In this document: positions 27,689-35,831 of the stretch, in pieces
Layout of the letters: each line of letters opens with the position of its first letter
How positions within the stretch are numbered: position 1 is the stretch's first letter
NCBI GenBank assembly: GCA_019931245.1
Contig: JAINDL010000151.1
Span: 1-38,135, forward strand
Direction of reading: 5' to 3'
Length of the DNA: 38,135 nt
DNA from: Bryobacteraceae bacterium CoA2 C42
GTDB taxonomy: Bacteria; Acidobacteriota; Terriglobia; Bryobacterales; Bryobacteraceae
Position numbers and translations under genes: made by a program
The notes under the pieces: generated by a model
What the model was told of the DNA's origin: nothing
The model's input: the letters and a program-made list of their open reading frames with translations, nothing else
Databases searched by the model: none

Positions 27689-27703
27689 GGAGTGGGTGGG
27701 CTG

Positions 27704-28609
27704 ATGCGAGTTGGGGAGCGGGAGGCGGGATGGGCGCTGTGCACGATTGCGGCTAAGCCGCAGTGGGCGCTGGGGCGGGTGGTGGCGCGTTCGTTTGCGC
27801 GGCACCACCCGGGGGTGCCCGTGTTCGTTCTGCTGGCCGATCGGGTGGACGGCGCGTTTGACCCCGCGGGCGAGCCCTTTACGATGATTACCCCGGACCA
27901 GTTGGATGCTCCGGAGACTGAGGAGATGGCGCGGCGGTACACGGCGCAGGAGTTCAGCTACGCGCTGACGCCGATGCTGCTGCAGTGGGTGCTGCGGCAG
28001 GGATTCGGGCGGGTTTTGTTTATCAAACAGGAGAGTCTGGTGACGGCGAGTCTGGAGCCGGTGATGGACCGGCTGCGGCAGCCCGGGGTTTCGCTGCTGT
28101 TGACGCCGCATCTGCTGGCGCCGCTCGGATCGGTAGCGCGGGAGTTGAACATTTTGCAGTGTGGCACGTTCAACGGGGGCTTCGTGGCGGTGCGGGGCGG
28201 CGGGGAGGGCGACCGGTTTCTGGCGTGGTGGCGGGGGCGGCTCGCGGAGGATTGCCGCTACGATCCGGCGGCGGGGCTGCATTTTGAACAGCGGTGGCTG
28301 GATTTGGCCGCGGGGATGATGGAGGGCGTCGAGGTGGTGCGTGATCCGGGAGTGAACGTGGGGCACTGGCATTTGCCGGAGCGGCAGGTGCGCGTCGAGG
28401 GGGAGACGATCTGGGCGGACGGCAGCCTGTGCCGGTTGTTCCGGTTCAGCGGTTTTGAGATGGAGCATCCGGAGCGGGCGACGCGGTACTTCGAGCGGTT
28501 GCGGATGGAGCGAATGGGGGAGGCGGCGACGGTGTTTGCCCGCTACCGGGCCGAGCTGGCGGCGGCGGGGTATTGGGAGACCCGCGCGTGGGGGTACTCG
28601 CTGCCATGA
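27704..28609 (+). CDS. GT-A-like glycosyltransferase homologue lacking the DxD motif
   Basis: Paralogue of the next gene, 301 residues. Matching blocks are VLFIKQESLVTASLEPV, LLLTPHLLAP, NILQCGTFNGGFVAVR, HFEQRWLDLA and RFSGFE, in the same order and spacing as the blocks of its neighbour. Where the neighbour has Asp-Ala-Asp, the metal and nucleotide-sugar binding DxD, this protein has Lys108-Gln109-Glu110. It should therefore be unable to bind the usual metal-sugar complex in the normal way, and may be a pseudoenzyme or partner subunit. The frame is intact and its composition matches its neighbour, so it is not an obvious pseudogene. The ATG at 27704 was chosen over GTG 27692 for spacing to GGAGTG. 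The stop overlaps the next ATG by 4 nt, implying equal production of both proteins. Confidence 0.75.
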   Translation: MRVGEREAGWALCTIAAKPQWALGRVVARSFARHHPGVPVFVLLADRVDGAFDPAGEPFTMITPDQLDAPETEEMARRYTAQEFSYALTPMLLQWVLRQGFGRVLFIKQESLVTASLEPVMDRLRQPGVSLLLTPHLLAPLGSVARELNILQCGTFNGGFVAVRGGGEGDRFLAWWRGRLAEDCRYDPAAGLHFEQRWLDLAAGMMEGVEVVRDPGVNVGHWHLPERQVRVEGETIWADGSLCRLFRFSGFEMEHPERATRYFERLRMERMGEAATVFARYRAELAAAGYWETRAWGYSLP

Positions 28610-29796
28610 TGACGATTGCGACGACGGTAGCGAACAACTTTGTGCCTTATCTGCGGGTTTTGCGGGACACGCTGCGGCAGTGGCATCCGGAGGCGCGGCT
28701 GGTGGTGGGACTGGCGGACGGGCCAGCCGGGGAGAGTGAGGGTTGGGAGTGGGTGGGGCTTGAGGAGATGGGGATTCCGCGGTTGCGGGAGTTCTGTTTC
28801 CGGTACACGCGGCGGGAGATGCTGCCGGCGGTGAAGCCGTTTCTGCTGCGGAGTCTGTTAGGCAAGGGGCATGAAACGGTGTTGTTTCTCGATGCCGATA
28901 TGATGGTCCTGGGGCCCTTGGACGGGCTGTGGGAGGCCGCGCAGCGCCATGCGCTGACGCTGACGCCGCATTTGGTGGGGATGGGGAATCCGGCGGCGGT
29001 GGAAAAGAACATTCTGCAGTGTGGGGTTTATAACGGCGGGTGTCTGGGGGTGCGGGCCGGGGCCACGGCCGGGGCGTTTTTGTCCTGGTGGCAGGAGCGC
29101 GTGACGGAGCACTGCCGGTTTGCGACCTCGCGGGGGATGCACTTTGATCAGCGGTGGCTCGACTACGCGCCGTCGTTCGTGGAGGGTTTGGGGGTGGTGC
29201 GGGAGCCGGGATACAACGTGGCCTACTGGAACTTGGCCGAGCGCGGTGGGCGCGCGGATTGGCGGCTGTTTCACTTCAGCGGTTTTGACGGGGAGGCGGA
29301 GGTGACGCGCTACTGGCCGGAGAAGCGACTGGAGGAGATGGGGGAGGCGGCGGAGTTGTACGTTGCATACGGGGCGAGGCTGCGGGCGGCGGGTTGGGCG
29401 CCGGGGCAGGACCGGGAGTGGGCGTTTGACCGGTGGGAGGACGGGGTGTTGATCGAGCCGAGCCAGCGGCAACGTTATGGGCGGCTGGGGCGGGGGGCGC
29501 GATGGTGCGCGGATCCTTTCCGGGTGGAGATGCGGGAGTGGCTTGAGGAGGTGGGGGCGGACGCGGACGGCGCGGAGGTGGCGCTGTGGCGGCGGGCGGC
29601 CGAGGAGCGGTTGACGAAGCTCGAGGAGGCGAATGATTTACTGGGGAGGCAGCAGGTGGAGTTGGACGAGTTGCGGAACGCGCTGGCCGGGGAGCGGGAG
29701 CGGGCGGCGTGGCTGGAGCGGGAGGCGGCGATGTACGAAGAGGCGGCGCGGGAGCGGCTGCGGGTGATTGAGCGGCTGACGGAACGGGAGGGCTGA
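28606..29796 (+). CDS. GT-A-fold glycosyltransferase with C-terminal coiled coil
   Basis: Cytoplasmic glycosyltransferase of 396 residues. The N-terminal domain shows TTVANNFVPYLRVLRDTL, the DxD motif in VLFLDADMMVLGPLDGL (Asp96 and Asp98), LTLTPHLVGMGN, NILQCGVYNGGCLGVR, HFDQRWLDYAPSF, GYNVAYWNLAER and FHFSGF. From about residue 310 to the end the sequence is rich in Glu, Arg, Leu and Ala with heptad spacing (RRAAEERLTKLEEANDLL, ELRNALAGERERAAWLER), predicted as a coiled coil for self-association or pairing. It begins in an ATGA overlap with the DxD-less paralogue, so a hetero-oligomer is plausible. Donor, acceptor and target glycan are unknown. The ATG at 28606 is preferred over upstream in-frame TTG and GTG codons because of the coupling. 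Confidence 0.82.
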   Translation: MMTIATTVANNFVPYLRVLRDTLRQWHPEARLVVGLADGPAGESEGWEWVGLEEMGIPRLREFCFRYTRREMLPAVKPFLLRSLLGKGHETVLFLDADMMVLGPLDGLWEAAQRHALTLTPHLVGMGNPAAVEKNILQCGVYNGGCLGVRAGATAGAFLSWWQERVTEHCRFATSRGMHFDQRWLDYAPSFVEGLGVVREPGYNVAYWNLAERGGRADWRLFHFSGFDGEAEVTRYWPEKRLEEMGEAAELYVAYGARLRAAGWAPGQDREWAFDRWEDGVLIEPSQRQRYGRLGRGARWCADPFRVEMREWLEEVGADADGAEVALWRRAAEERLTKLEEANDLLGRQQVELDELRNALAGERERAAWLEREAAMYEEAARERLRVIERLTEREG

Positions 29797-31984: not shown

Positions 31985-34132
31985 GTGCGATTTCTTTGGA
32001 TGGCTGCGGCGCTGGCGGCTCTGTTGCTGCTGTTTCCGGCATTTCCGGGGGCGTTCGGGCTGTTTGGTCCGGATGAGCCGCGGTATGCCTCGATTGCGCG
32101 GGAGATGGCGCGGAGCGGGGACTGGGTGACGCCGGTGCTGGACGGCAAGCCGTGGCTCGAGAAGCCGGCGCTGCTGTATTGGATGGGGGCGGTGGGGTTC
32201 AAGCTGGGCTTGGGGCCGGAGGCGGCGGTGCGGGTGCCGTTGGGCGTGCTGAGCGCGGGGTTTGTGGTGTGGTTTGGGTGGATGGTGGGGAGTTGGCGGC
32301 GGGCGGCGATGCTGGCGACGTGCGCGGGTTGGATTGGCTATTCGAACATCGCGGTGACGGATGTGCCGCTGGCGGTGTGTTTTTCGGCTGGGATGGTGCT
32401 GGCGCTGCGGTGGGTGGAGACGGGGCGGGGGGCGTGGTGGGTGGGGGCTTGTTTGGGGGCGGCGATGCTGGCCAAGGGTTTGGTGCCGGTGGTGCTGGCG
32501 GCGCCGGTGGCGTGGTTTGCGCGGGAGCGGTGGCGGGAGTGGTGGAAGGTGGTGGTGGCTTCGCTGGTGGTGGCGGCGCCGTGGTATGTGCTGGTGACGC
32601 GGGCGCAGGGGTGGGCGTTCATCAACGAGTTTTTTATTGAGCACCATTTCAGCCGATTCGCGAGCGGGGACCTGCAGCATGTGCAGCCGTTCTGGTTTTA
32701 TGGGCCGATGCTGATTGGCCTGCTGCTGCCGTGGACGCCGTTGTTGTGGCGGGGGGAGTGGCGGACGCGGGCGTTTTATGCGGCGTGGCTGGTGTTTGGG
32801 TTCGTTTTCTTCAGTGTTTCGAAGAATAAGCTGCCGGGGTATCTGCTGCCACTGCTGCCGGCGGCGGTGATGGTGATGCGGGTGCCGGGGCCGCGGTACT
32901 TGGCTGGGGCGATGGGGCTGATGCTGGCGGTGGTGGCGACAGCGAAGCTGAGCTATCTGCCGGCGAAGGATGGGGAACTGACGGGGCGGGCGTTGGCGCG
33001 GCAGGTGGGGCCGGATAGTTGTGCGAACGGGATTCCGCGGAGCTTGCGGTACGGGGTGCATTACTACGCGGGAAAGGCGTTGGGGGAGTGCTGGGAGATG
33101 CCGGGGGCAAGTCTGGTGCCGGCCGGGAAGGCGGCGGTGCGGAAGGGGTTGCAGTTCCGGGTGTCGGGTGCGTCCGGGGAGGGGCGACTCCTGTTTTTGG
33201 CGGCGTTGCGGCCGACAGAGGGGGAGTGGGTGGCGCCGGTGGAGGCGGAGCCGAATCTGGTGTGGCTGGGGGCGCGGGACGTGCGGGATTGGGAGGCGGG
33301 GGAGACGATTGGGTTTGATCCGAACGAGATTGCCTATCCGGGGCCGTTCTGGGGAGCGGGGAAGGGGATCTGGTACTGGAATCTCGTGTTTGTGAGGGAC
33401 GGAAAGGTGGTGGCGCGGAGTGCGACGCGGAAGGAGGTGGATTGGGATCCGGCGGCGGACCGGGTGGTGGAGGCGCGGTTGGAGCCGGTGGAGGACCCAG
33501 GATGGAAGCGGGGCTGGCGTACCGGATTCTTTGGCAAATTGGGCCGGGCGGCGGATCACTTCCGCGTCGAGTCGCTCACGGCTGCCCGATGGTACTTCAG
33601 GAAGGTAGCTGGGTTGGGCAAGGGGCGATGGACGGGGTCCCGTGGTTCTGGTGTTGTGGCTTGGGGAACTCTGTGGTTGTACCAGCACGATCCAACGCTT
33701 GAATCCGGCACGATGCAGGTGGACAATCCTGTGCCGCTCGATTTTTCGAACTTTTACGGCGTCGATTTAACGAAGAGGCCGAAGCAGATTCTGTTCGACG
33801 CGGCCGGCCAGCCGATCCCGCATCCGACGATTCCCGGTTGGACGCTGCGGGAGTGGGCGCTGCAGGACGCCGTCATCGACCCGCACTACGGGCATTGGGC
33901 GTCGATGGAGTATCAATTCGGCCCGCCGACGCCGGAAGGCTTCGAACGGCCGCTGTTTGATCGGAGTACCGGCGAGGTCGACTCGGCGGTGCTCGAGCAT
34001 TGGCTGAAGAACGACCTGGCGCGGCTGTACGTGGAGAAAAAGATCGATGCGCGAGGGATTACAATCCGGCGGCCGGATGCTGCGGCGTTGTCGTTCTGCC
34101 GGAAGACCGGGGCGCGCTGCGTCGTAGACTAG
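31985..34132 (+). CDS. ArnT/PMT-like membrane glycosyltransferase fused to esterase-like remnants
   Basis: Residues 1 to about 385 form an ArnT-like GT-C enzyme, which moves a lipid-linked sugar onto an envelope acceptor. It has the first-loop catalytic motif FGPDEPRYASIAREM, then KPWLEKPALLYWMGAV, many membrane spans, SVSKNKLPGYLLPLLPA and a short soluble tail. From about residue 393 the sequence changes character. GRLLFLAAL, ARDVRDWEAGETIGFDPNEI and LVFVRDGKVVARS resemble the N-terminal domain of enterochelin-esterase-like hydrolases. SRGSGVVAWGTLWLYQ, VPLDFSNFYGVDL and FERPLFDRSTGEVDSAVLEHW resemble their later part, but most of the catalytic domain and the C-terminal end are missing. The 715-residue frame has no stop. 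It may be a composite or decaying gene. The start is GTG 31985 or ATG 32000; TATACT precedes by 8 nt. Confidence 0.7.
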   Translation: MRFLWMAAALAALLLLFPAFPGAFGLFGPDEPRYASIAREMARSGDWVTPVLDGKPWLEKPALLYWMGAVGFKLGLGPEAAVRVPLGVLSAGFVVWFGWMVGSWRRAAMLATCAGWIGYSNIAVTDVPLAVCFSAGMVLALRWVETGRGAWWVGACLGAAMLAKGLVPVVLAAPVAWFARERWREWWKVVVASLVVAAPWYVLVTRAQGWAFINEFFIEHHFSRFASGDLQHVQPFWFYGPMLIGLLLPWTPLLWRGEWRTRAFYAAWLVFGFVFFSVSKNKLPGYLLPLLPAAVMVMRVPGPRYLAGAMGLMLAVVATAKLSYLPAKDGELTGRALARQVGPDSCANGIPRSLRYGVHYYAGKALGECWEMPGASLVPAGKAAVRKGLQFRVSGASGEGRLLFLAALRPTEGEWVAPVEAEPNLVWLGARDVRDWEAGETIGFDPNEIAYPGPFWGAGKGIWYWNLVFVRDGKVVARSATRKEVDWDPAADRVVEARLEPVEDPGWKRGWRTGFFGKLGRAADHFRVESLTAARWYFRKVAGLGKGRWTGSRGSGVVAWGTLWLYQHDPTLESGTMQVDNPVPLDFSNFYGVDLTKRPKQILFDAAGQPIPHPTIPGWTLREWALQDAVIDPHYGHWASMEYQFGPPTPEGFERPLFDRSTGEVDSAVLEHWLKNDLARLYVEKKIDARGITIRRPDAAALSFCRKTGARCVVD
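33161..34132 (+). pseudogene. Possible internally deleted esterase fragment fused in frame to the ArnT-like gene
   Basis: This is the 3' part of the composite frame. My reading, from family memory and not a search, is that it corresponds to an enterochelin-esterase-like hydrolase without its signal peptide. About the central half of that protein would be lost between roughly 33530 and 33640, and the stretch with the catalytic His is missing at the end. Composition also changes, from strongly G-ending codons before about 33500 to balanced codons after about 33700. An alternative is a genuine novel soluble domain on the glycosyltransferase. Confidence 0.4.
34125..34130 (+). promoter_or_regulatory. 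Possible -10 element (TAGACT) of selD
   Basis: TAGACT ends 7 nt before the GTG at 34138, inside the last codons of the preceding frame, with only AGAAAAA between. There is no Shine-Dalgarno sequence. It fits the TANNNT pattern seen at other starts here and supports GTG 34138 as the selD start. Confidence 0.35.
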
Positions 34133-34137
34133 AAAAA

Positions 34138-35157
34138 GTGTCCTTGAAGAAGTTGACGGCGCATGTCAAAGCGGCGGGTTGAGCGAGCAAGTTGAGTCCA
34201 AAGGTTTTGGACCAGGCGCTGGCGGGGCTACCGCGACAGTTGGATCCACGGGTGCTGATTGGCTTTGAGACGTCGGATGACGCCGGGGTTTTTCAGTTAA
34301 CGCCGGAGTGTGCGCTGGTGCAGACGGTGGATTTTTTCACGCCGATTGTGGACGATCCGTACACGTTCGGGCAGATTGCGGCGGCGAATTCGTTGAGCGA
34401 TGTGTATGCGATGGGCGGGGAGCCGATTTCGGCGTTGTCGATTCTGGCCTGGCCGCGGGACGGAGAGATGGAGGACCTGCGCGCGGTGCTGCGGGGCGGG
34501 GCGGAGAAGATGATCGAGGCCGGCTGTTCGGTGATTGGCGGGCATTCGATTGCGGACGCCGAGCCGAAGTTCGGCTACGCGGTGACCGGGACGGTGCATC
34601 CGGCGCGGGTGCTGGCCAACGGCGGGGCGCGGGTGGGCGATGTGCTGGTGTTGACCAAGCGATTGGGGACGGGGATTGTGTCGACGGCGCTCAAGAAGGG
34701 TTTTGCGCGGGAGGCGGACGTGGCGGCGTCGATCGAGTCGATGGTGACGTTGAACCGGGCGGCGGGCGCGGCGATGCGGCAGTGCGAGGTGCATGCGTGC
34801 ACGGACGTGACGGGCTTCGGGTTGCTCGGCCATGCGCGGGAGATGGCTGCGGCATCGGCTGGGTGCGGGGCGGGGGTGACGCTGGTGATTGAGAGCGGGC
34901 GGCTGCAGTTGCTGCCCGGGGTGGCGGAGTATGTGGCGGCGGGGGCGGTGCCGGGGGGATTAAAGAGCAACCGGGAGTTTGTGGAGGGTCAGGTGACGGG
35001 GGCGGCGGGGGAGGTGCTCTACGATCCGCAGACTTCGGGGGGGCTGCTACTGGCGCTGCCCGAGGCGGAGGCGGCGCGGATGGAGGCGTTGTACGCGGGG
35101 GCGTACCGGATGGGCCGGGTGGTGGCGAAGCGGGATACGCTGTTAGAAGTCGAATGA
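34138..35157 (+). CDS. selD: Selenide, water dikinase, selenocysteine-containing (in-frame TGA at 34180)
   Basis: SelD makes selenophosphate from selenide and ATP, the selenium donor for selenocysteine and selenouridine. Read through the TGA, the N-terminus is VSLKKLTAHVKAAG-U-ASKLSPKVLD, with U15 and Lys18 spaced like the catalytic Cys17 and Lys20 of E. coli SelD (GCGCKISPKVL). The rest is canonical: FETSDDAGVFQL, TVDFFTPIVDDPYTFGQIAA, NSLSDVYAMGGEP, CSVIGGHSIADAEPKFGYAV, TDVTGFGLLGHA and DPQTSGGLLLAL. Full length is 339 residues with Sec; treating TGA as stop would wrongly start the protein at about 34192 and lose the active site. A SECIS-like hairpin follows the TGA. The stop overlaps the pyrF start by 4 nt. 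GTG 34138 is the likely start; TTG 34144 is an alternative. Confidence 0.9.
34196..34212 (+). promoter_or_regulatory. Bacterial SECIS-like hairpin in selD
   Basis: GTCCAA (34196-34201) pairs perfectly with TTGGAC (34207-34212) around the loop AGGTT. The stem begins 13 nt after the TGA at 34180-34182. Bacterial SECIS elements bound by SelB sit just 3' of the UGA, with a GU-containing apical loop (AGGUCU in E. coli fdhF) at similar distance. The hairpin lies entirely within coding sequence. Confidence 0.75.
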
Positions 35158-35831
35158 ATCCGATCATCATTGCACTGGACTGTGAAACAGCCGCCGAAGC
35201 GCGGGGAATTGTGGAAGCGACGGCGGAGGAGATCACCTTCTACAAGGTGGGCCTGGAGTTGTACACCGTGGCGGGGATGGCGTTTGTGGACGAACTGCTG
35301 GGCCGGGGGAAGCAGGTTTTCCTTGACCTGAAGTTCCACGATATTGGGGAGACGGTGAAGCGGGCGGTGCGGCAGGTGGCGCGGAGCGGGGTGAGCTTGT
35401 TGACGGTGCACGCCGAGCCGGGGGTGATGCGGGCGGCCGTGGAGGGTCGAGGGGACTCGGGATTGCAGTTGCTGGGGGTGACGGTGTTGACGAGCATTGC
35501 CGAGAGCGACCTGCCGGCGATGGGGTACACGTGTTCGCTCGGGGAGTTGTTTGCGCTGCGGGTGAGGAATGCGATGGAGGCGGGGGTGGACGGGCTGGTG
35601 TGTTCGCCGCTCGAGGTGGGGGCGTTGCGGGCGCAGGTGGGGCCGGGGAAGATTCTGGTGACGCCGGGGGTGCGGAGCGCGGGAGCGGAGGTGGGGGATC
35701 AGAAGCGGGTGGCGACGCCGGCGGCGGCGATGGCGGCGGGGGCGAGCTATCTGGTGGTGGGGCGGCAGGTGACGCGGGCGGCGGACCCGGGGGCGGCGGT
35801 GCGGCAGATTCTGCGGGAAATCAACCCATAG
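35154..35831 (+). CDS. pyrF: Orotidine 5'-phosphate decarboxylase
   Basis: Catalyses the last step of de novo UMP synthesis, OMP to UMP, in the cytoplasm. The 225-residue product has the N-terminal IIIALDCETAAEA and substrate Lys in YKVGLELYT. The catalytic Asp-x-Lys-x-x-Asp set is in FLDLKFHDIGETVKRAV, with LLTVHAE, VTVLTS and the phosphate-binding LVTPGVR and LVVGRQVTRA near the C-terminus. The length fits the short bacterial form. The ATG overlaps the selD stop (ATGA, 35154-35157), so its translation is probably coupled to that of selD and hence to read-through of the selD UGA. No other pyrimidine gene is nearby. Confidence 0.95.
   Translation: MNPIIIALDCETAAEARGIVEATAEEITFYKVGLELYTVAGMAFVDELLGRGKQVFLDLKFHDIGETVKRAVRQVARSGVSLLTVHAEPGVMRAAVEGRGDSGLQLLGVTVLTSIAESDLPAMGYTCSLGELFALRVRNAMEAGVDGLVCSPLEVGALRAQVGPGKILVTPGVRSAGAEVGDQKRVATPAAAMAAGASYLVVGRQVTRAADPGAAVRQILREINP

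Follow-up and report, generated by a model that had tools for sequence, protein, structure and literature searches.

A selD gene with an in-frame UGA codon and a bacterial SECIS-type hairpin in Bryobacteraceae bacterium CoA2 C42

SelD and FdhA are described as the most widespread bacterial selenoproteins by Zhang et al. 2006 (PMC1794560), an account that also covers replacements of selenocysteine (Sec) by Cys and SECIS-like remnants after the Cys codons. For Acidobacteria it tabulates 4 selenoproteins of 3 families and reports the selenouridine trait as absent from the members then sequenced, and its authors suggest that in some species the Sec trait is possibly maintained by SelD itself. SPS2/SelD proteins with bacterial SECIS elements (bSECIS) were treated by Mariotti et al. 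2015 (PMC4561486), the main text of which contains no word beginning "Acidobacteri". Between them, these two sources make Sec-containing SelD, the bacterial SECIS and Sec/Cys switching already published matters. Literature searches, with a coverage that leaves most subscription journals outside, found no paper devoted to SelD in the order Bryobacterales.

Here we analyse the selD gene in a 38,135-nucleotide stretch of DNA (the window) from Bryobacteraceae bacterium CoA2 C42. As far as the account in PMC1794560 goes, the sole difference between this gene product and the Sec-SelD proteins of other bacteria is its lineage. Compared with the Cys-SelD structures PDB 3u0o and 2yye, it belongs to the same family over nearly its full length, with the same active-site position and Lys, but has a predicted Sec in place of Cys, plus an mRNA hairpin. 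We regard it as almost certain that this selD is a selenoprotein gene for selenophosphate synthetase, in which Sec is read from an in-frame UGA by means of that hairpin.

The selD gene and its start

The features that bear on this reading are the following.

34138..35157, plus strand: selD coding sequence, GTG start, 339 residues, predicted Sec at residue 15
34180..34182, plus strand: putative Sec UGA codon (U15), at the position of Cys17 in PDB chain 3u0o_A; TGA or a Cys codon in 89/89 aligned rows
34192..34194, plus strand: in-frame TTG, start of the table-11 ORF, which lacks U15 and K18
34196..34212, plus strand: predicted bacterial SECIS hairpin, 6-bp stem GTCCAA/TTGGAC, loop AGGTT
35154..35831, plus strand: pyrF (orotidine 5'-phosphate decarboxylase), PF00215 172.6 bits

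The original prediction held that a TGA splits the conserved SelD N-terminus within one frame, at the position of a known Cys and with Lys at +3. This was borne out: the TGA is in frame with GTG 34138, and the same frame continues to the terminator TGA at 35155-35157. The product matches the selD profile TIGR00476 at 362 bits (cut-off 125) over profile positions 1-310 of 311, as expected of a full-length SelD. In an alignment to 3u0o_A, which bears the name selenide, water dikinase, residue 15 corresponds to Cys17 and Lys18 to Lys20, giving the N-terminal loop the Sec/Cys and the Lys three residues on by which members of the family are recognized (U15/K18 here, C17/K20 in the structure). We take the equivalents of U15 and K18 to be the catalytic residues of SelD. 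The active site very probably contains selenocysteine.

Ordinary annotation was predicted to lose the active site, and does so, the table-11 ORF beginning at TTG 34192 without U15 and K18; the locus confirms a selenoprotein truncated by a table-11 ORF call. Taken at face value, that ORF would mean that translation begins at TTG 34192 and yields a truncated SelD that lacks the N-terminal loop, the TGA lying upstream of the gene. We consider this highly improbable, as translation of the frame 5' of the TGA gives KLTAHVKAAG, the SelD N-terminus, which is conserved in relatives and aligned to a solved SelD. In addition, 36 of the 55 TGA-containing selD genes compared below have a GTG or ATG at the window's start-to-Sec distance, which supports GTG 34138 as the start.

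At its other end selD overlaps pyrF, with its ATG at 35154, by 4 bases, and we infer that the two genes are probably co-transcribed. Just upstream of selD, positions 31985-34132 hold a 715-residue gene with no Pfam match at E 0.001.

The Sec codon and its hairpin in relatives

SelD scored over cut-off in 211 of 257 genomes of the order; among the matches listed, 29 rows (28 genomes) were free of internal stops, all others having one TGA. Our alignment of 89 rows (the window, 30 loci, 18 loci and 40 stretches) covers all 29 listed no-stop rows but just a portion of those with TGA. At the site, 59 rows read TGA, 26 TGC and 4 TGT; a residue other than Sec or Cys, which the original prediction had named as contrary evidence, was found in none of the 89. 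Four genomes are present twice, and removing the repeats leaves 85 distinct proteins, 55 with TGA (3 from other phyla) and 30 with Cys (1 from another phylum), so that the alignment with relatives proposed at the outset places an in-frame TGA where homologues have Cys. By this comparison Sec-containing SelD, a known type of selenoprotein, appears to be common in the order.

The hairpin lies exactly as originally described, with 13 nt between TGA 34180-34182 and the stem: GTCCAA at 34196-34201, loop AGGTT at 34202-34206 and TTGGAC at 34207-34212. Rfam at gathering scores gave 0 matches in the window, so that no library model backs the hairpin. Its folding energy on its own is unremarkable and not decisive (-20.1 kcal/mol over 54 nt, z -1.89, with 8/200 shuffles equally good).

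The comparison among relatives is more telling. All 6 pairs at the window's register are present in 50/55 TGA genes versus 3/30 Cys genes of the 85 distinct SelD. When the window was recoded with synonymous codons at their frequencies in the window, leaving the protein unchanged, all 6 pairs survived in 232 of 20000 sequences; over the 59 TGA rows (4 genomes twice), which are related and do not amount to 59 independent trials, a complete stem was expected 0.95 times and observed 54 times. Among the 56 same-phylum TGA rows, repeats included, 43 have the loop AGGTT and 53 use CCA for the Pro encoded in the stem (versus 3/29 Cys rows). The stem varies little across these 56 rows, most pairs being of one type, with two-sided exchanges at pair 1 (GC/CG, once), pair 2 (TA/GC, once) and pair 6 (AT/GC, four times). 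Taken together, the comparative test argues strongly that the hairpin has been kept in TGA genes beyond coding constraint. Five of the 55 TGA genes are without a complete stem in the window's register, three of them from other phyla. Three Cys genes (L024, L032 and L102) have one, and their stems may be remnants of Sec ancestors, as in the cases described by Zhang et al.

In a draft of 237 contigs from an order where Cys-SelD genes exist, one might suspect a Cys-SelD gene in which faulty sequencing or assembly, or a pseudogene mutation, had produced the TGA. This has virtually no probability left, as independent genomes already refute it: 55 distinct SelD from different records carry TGA at that codon, 50 with the complete stem, and it is kept in the 98.5%-identical SelD of a named MAG (L054) and in relatives near 60% identity.

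Sec machinery in the genome and across the order

The original prediction inferred a working Sec system. In agreement with this, the window's genome (a draft of 6.07 Mb in 237 contigs, 97.7% complete) contains tRNA-Sec (70.1 bits; ARAGORN anticodon tca, a UCA tRNA-Sec), selA (450.6 bits, cut-off 267.9) and selB (366.8 bits, cut-off 242.25). Other selenoproteins, which it was suggested should be sought, also appeared: at least three further genes have an in-frame TGA, encoding formate dehydrogenase-N alpha and two AhpC/TSA-fold (peroxiredoxin-fold) proteins. The first, a formate dehydrogenase-like gene on contig C9, has one internal TGA and does not reach the TIGR01591 cut-off; when translated through the TGA, it carries U in RLUHGPTVASLAATFGRGAMTNGW and matches TIGR01553 (formate dehydrogenase-N alpha) at 1354.7 bits (cut-off 814.2), this U presumably being the usual Sec site of the enzyme. 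The other two are those of the 19 AhpC/TSA matches in the genome that contain one TGA.

L142:543-1070, minus strand: candidate selenoprotein peroxiredoxin, 175 residues, U in TGGUTAEM
L143:1555-2772, minus strand: candidate selenoprotein redoxin, larger protein, DWUPYC and then a DsbD_N domain

With these three genes at hand, we rejected the idea that SelD is the sole selenoprotein and the Sec system serves itself alone. As for the selenouridine trait, a search for its marker selU (SelU/YbbB) at E 0.001 found nothing in the window's genome, and across the order 0/257 genomes pass the cut-off, with weak partial matches in 32/257.

Co-occurrence was followed across the 257 genomes. A tRNA-Sec was accepted at E below 1e-10, a threshold of our own; the RF01852 gathering score is too lax here, and we adopted the stricter value because weak RF01852 matches are mostly called tRNA-Ser (of 20 such stretches, ARAGORN called 18 tRNA-Ser and 1 tRNA-Leu, with 1 no call). 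SelD and tRNA-Sec occur together in 179 genomes, SelD alone in 32, tRNA alone in 14 and neither in 32 (odds ratio 12.8). For SelD and selB the counts are 187, 24, 17 and 29 (odds ratio 13.3). Both tables rest on lists compiled by eye, in which selB-negative genomes number 53 versus 52 by tally. The associated p-values (about 1e-12) are overstated because the genomes share ancestry and include many drafts. Either selB or tRNA-Sec is present in 206/211 SelD genomes, and SelD, selB and a strong tRNA-Sec are all absent from 26/257, which suggests loss of the whole Sec trait. Counted by eye, 15 of these 26 belong to genus g64, and some are incomplete drafts.

A strong tRNA-Sec is missing from 32/211 SelD genomes, and none of the 28 of these that were rescored with more candidates exceeded 54.6 bits. 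The cause is more probably an assembly gap or an unusual tRNA than the lack of a Sec system, because 27 of the 32 have selB (for example G076 and G176, 96 and 98% complete), some of them nearly complete. A tRNA-Sec-like stretch scoring 54.6 bits with RF01852, without an ARAGORN call, lies at L132:205-295 (minus strand; G198:C270:36344-36434); by eye its anticodon loop has CGA, and its fold of lowest energy departs from a clean cloverleaf. PMC7609411 describes tRNA-Sec with sense anticodons as well as allo-tRNAs, and the latter occur in Acidobacteria too.

Such unexplained absences in some related drafts could speak for a genome-wide reassignment of UGA, or for readthrough independent of SelB, with Cys, Trp or another residue inserted. 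That reading is exceedingly unlikely: 46 of the 54 TGA-SelD genes with their end present terminate at TGA, and a usual terminator is not simply reassigned; the window's genome has selA, selB and a tRNA-Sec with anticodon tca; and the hairpin persists in TGA genes, most Cys genes having lost it.

For the preferred reading, insertion of Sec at the internal UGA, gene, codon, hairpin, conservation and machinery can all be read in the DNA, while Sec insertion, SelB binding and catalysis would follow from the known family and pathway. SelB carrying Sec-tRNA-Sec would bind the hairpin just 3' of the in-frame UGA, and its binding would lead the ribosome to put Sec at residue 15 instead of stopping. 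At the terminal UGA of selD, with no such hairpin at that distance, translation would stop; the 42-nt fold after this TGA is a weak hairpin (-5.0 kcal/mol) with its onset 21 nt from the first TGA base, versus 16 nt for the Sec TGA. Sec15 and Lys18 would take part in the conversion of selenide and ATP to selenophosphate, which in turn would allow SelA to make the Sec-tRNA needed by the next SelD molecule. Such an autocatalytic loop follows from known biochemistry.

Exchange of Sec and Cys in SelD

A maximum-likelihood tree of the 85 SelD proteins has 11 Sec/Cys label changes, versus 24.9 for shuffled labels, and its well-supported branches force at least 7. These numbers come from a tree with a bootstrap not fully settled, 35/82 inner branches unresolved and several long end branches, and they count changes without assigning a direction. 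Within the window's own genus, one Cys-SelD (L041, G086) sits among the Sec-SelD rows. Among the matches listed, the 28 Cys-SelD genomes have selB in 25/28 and tRNA-Sec in 26/28. The order thus lends itself well to the study of Sec/Cys switching as a natural experiment, with near relatives, even congeneric ones, that differ at one residue and mostly keep the machinery, although no new principle for biology at large emerges from it.

These relatives also qualify the original prediction that the ability to make selenophosphate depends on Sec insertion. For this gene the sequence evidence supports it, SelD apparently needing Sec to make selenophosphate. As a requirement of the pathway it did not stand, because Cys-SelD relatives mostly keep the Sec machinery, and the loop is not obligatory.

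A bolder proposal, which we think unlikely, builds on the finding of no selenouridine branch in the order: most selenophosphate would go to Sec, a genome with Sec-SelD would form a closed positive-feedback loop and possibly an all-or-none switch, and each of the repeated Sec/Cys changes, in genomes that retain the rest of the Sec system, would open or close this loop. If so, cells long starved of selenium could not easily restart.

Elsewhere in the window, the ORFs at 27692-28609 and 28573-29796 are likewise without a Pfam match (E 0.001). ARAGORN calls a tRNA-Gly at 2361-2449, opposite a penicillin amidase gene; it is absent from the Rfam matches and probably false. A rhodopsin search of the window's genome gave no match, but as no control was picked up either, this negative carries no weight. 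Positions 134-2228 encode a lycopene cyclase (PF05834) followed by a beta-carotene 15,15'-dioxygenase (PF15461), a gene pair that suggests retinal synthesis.
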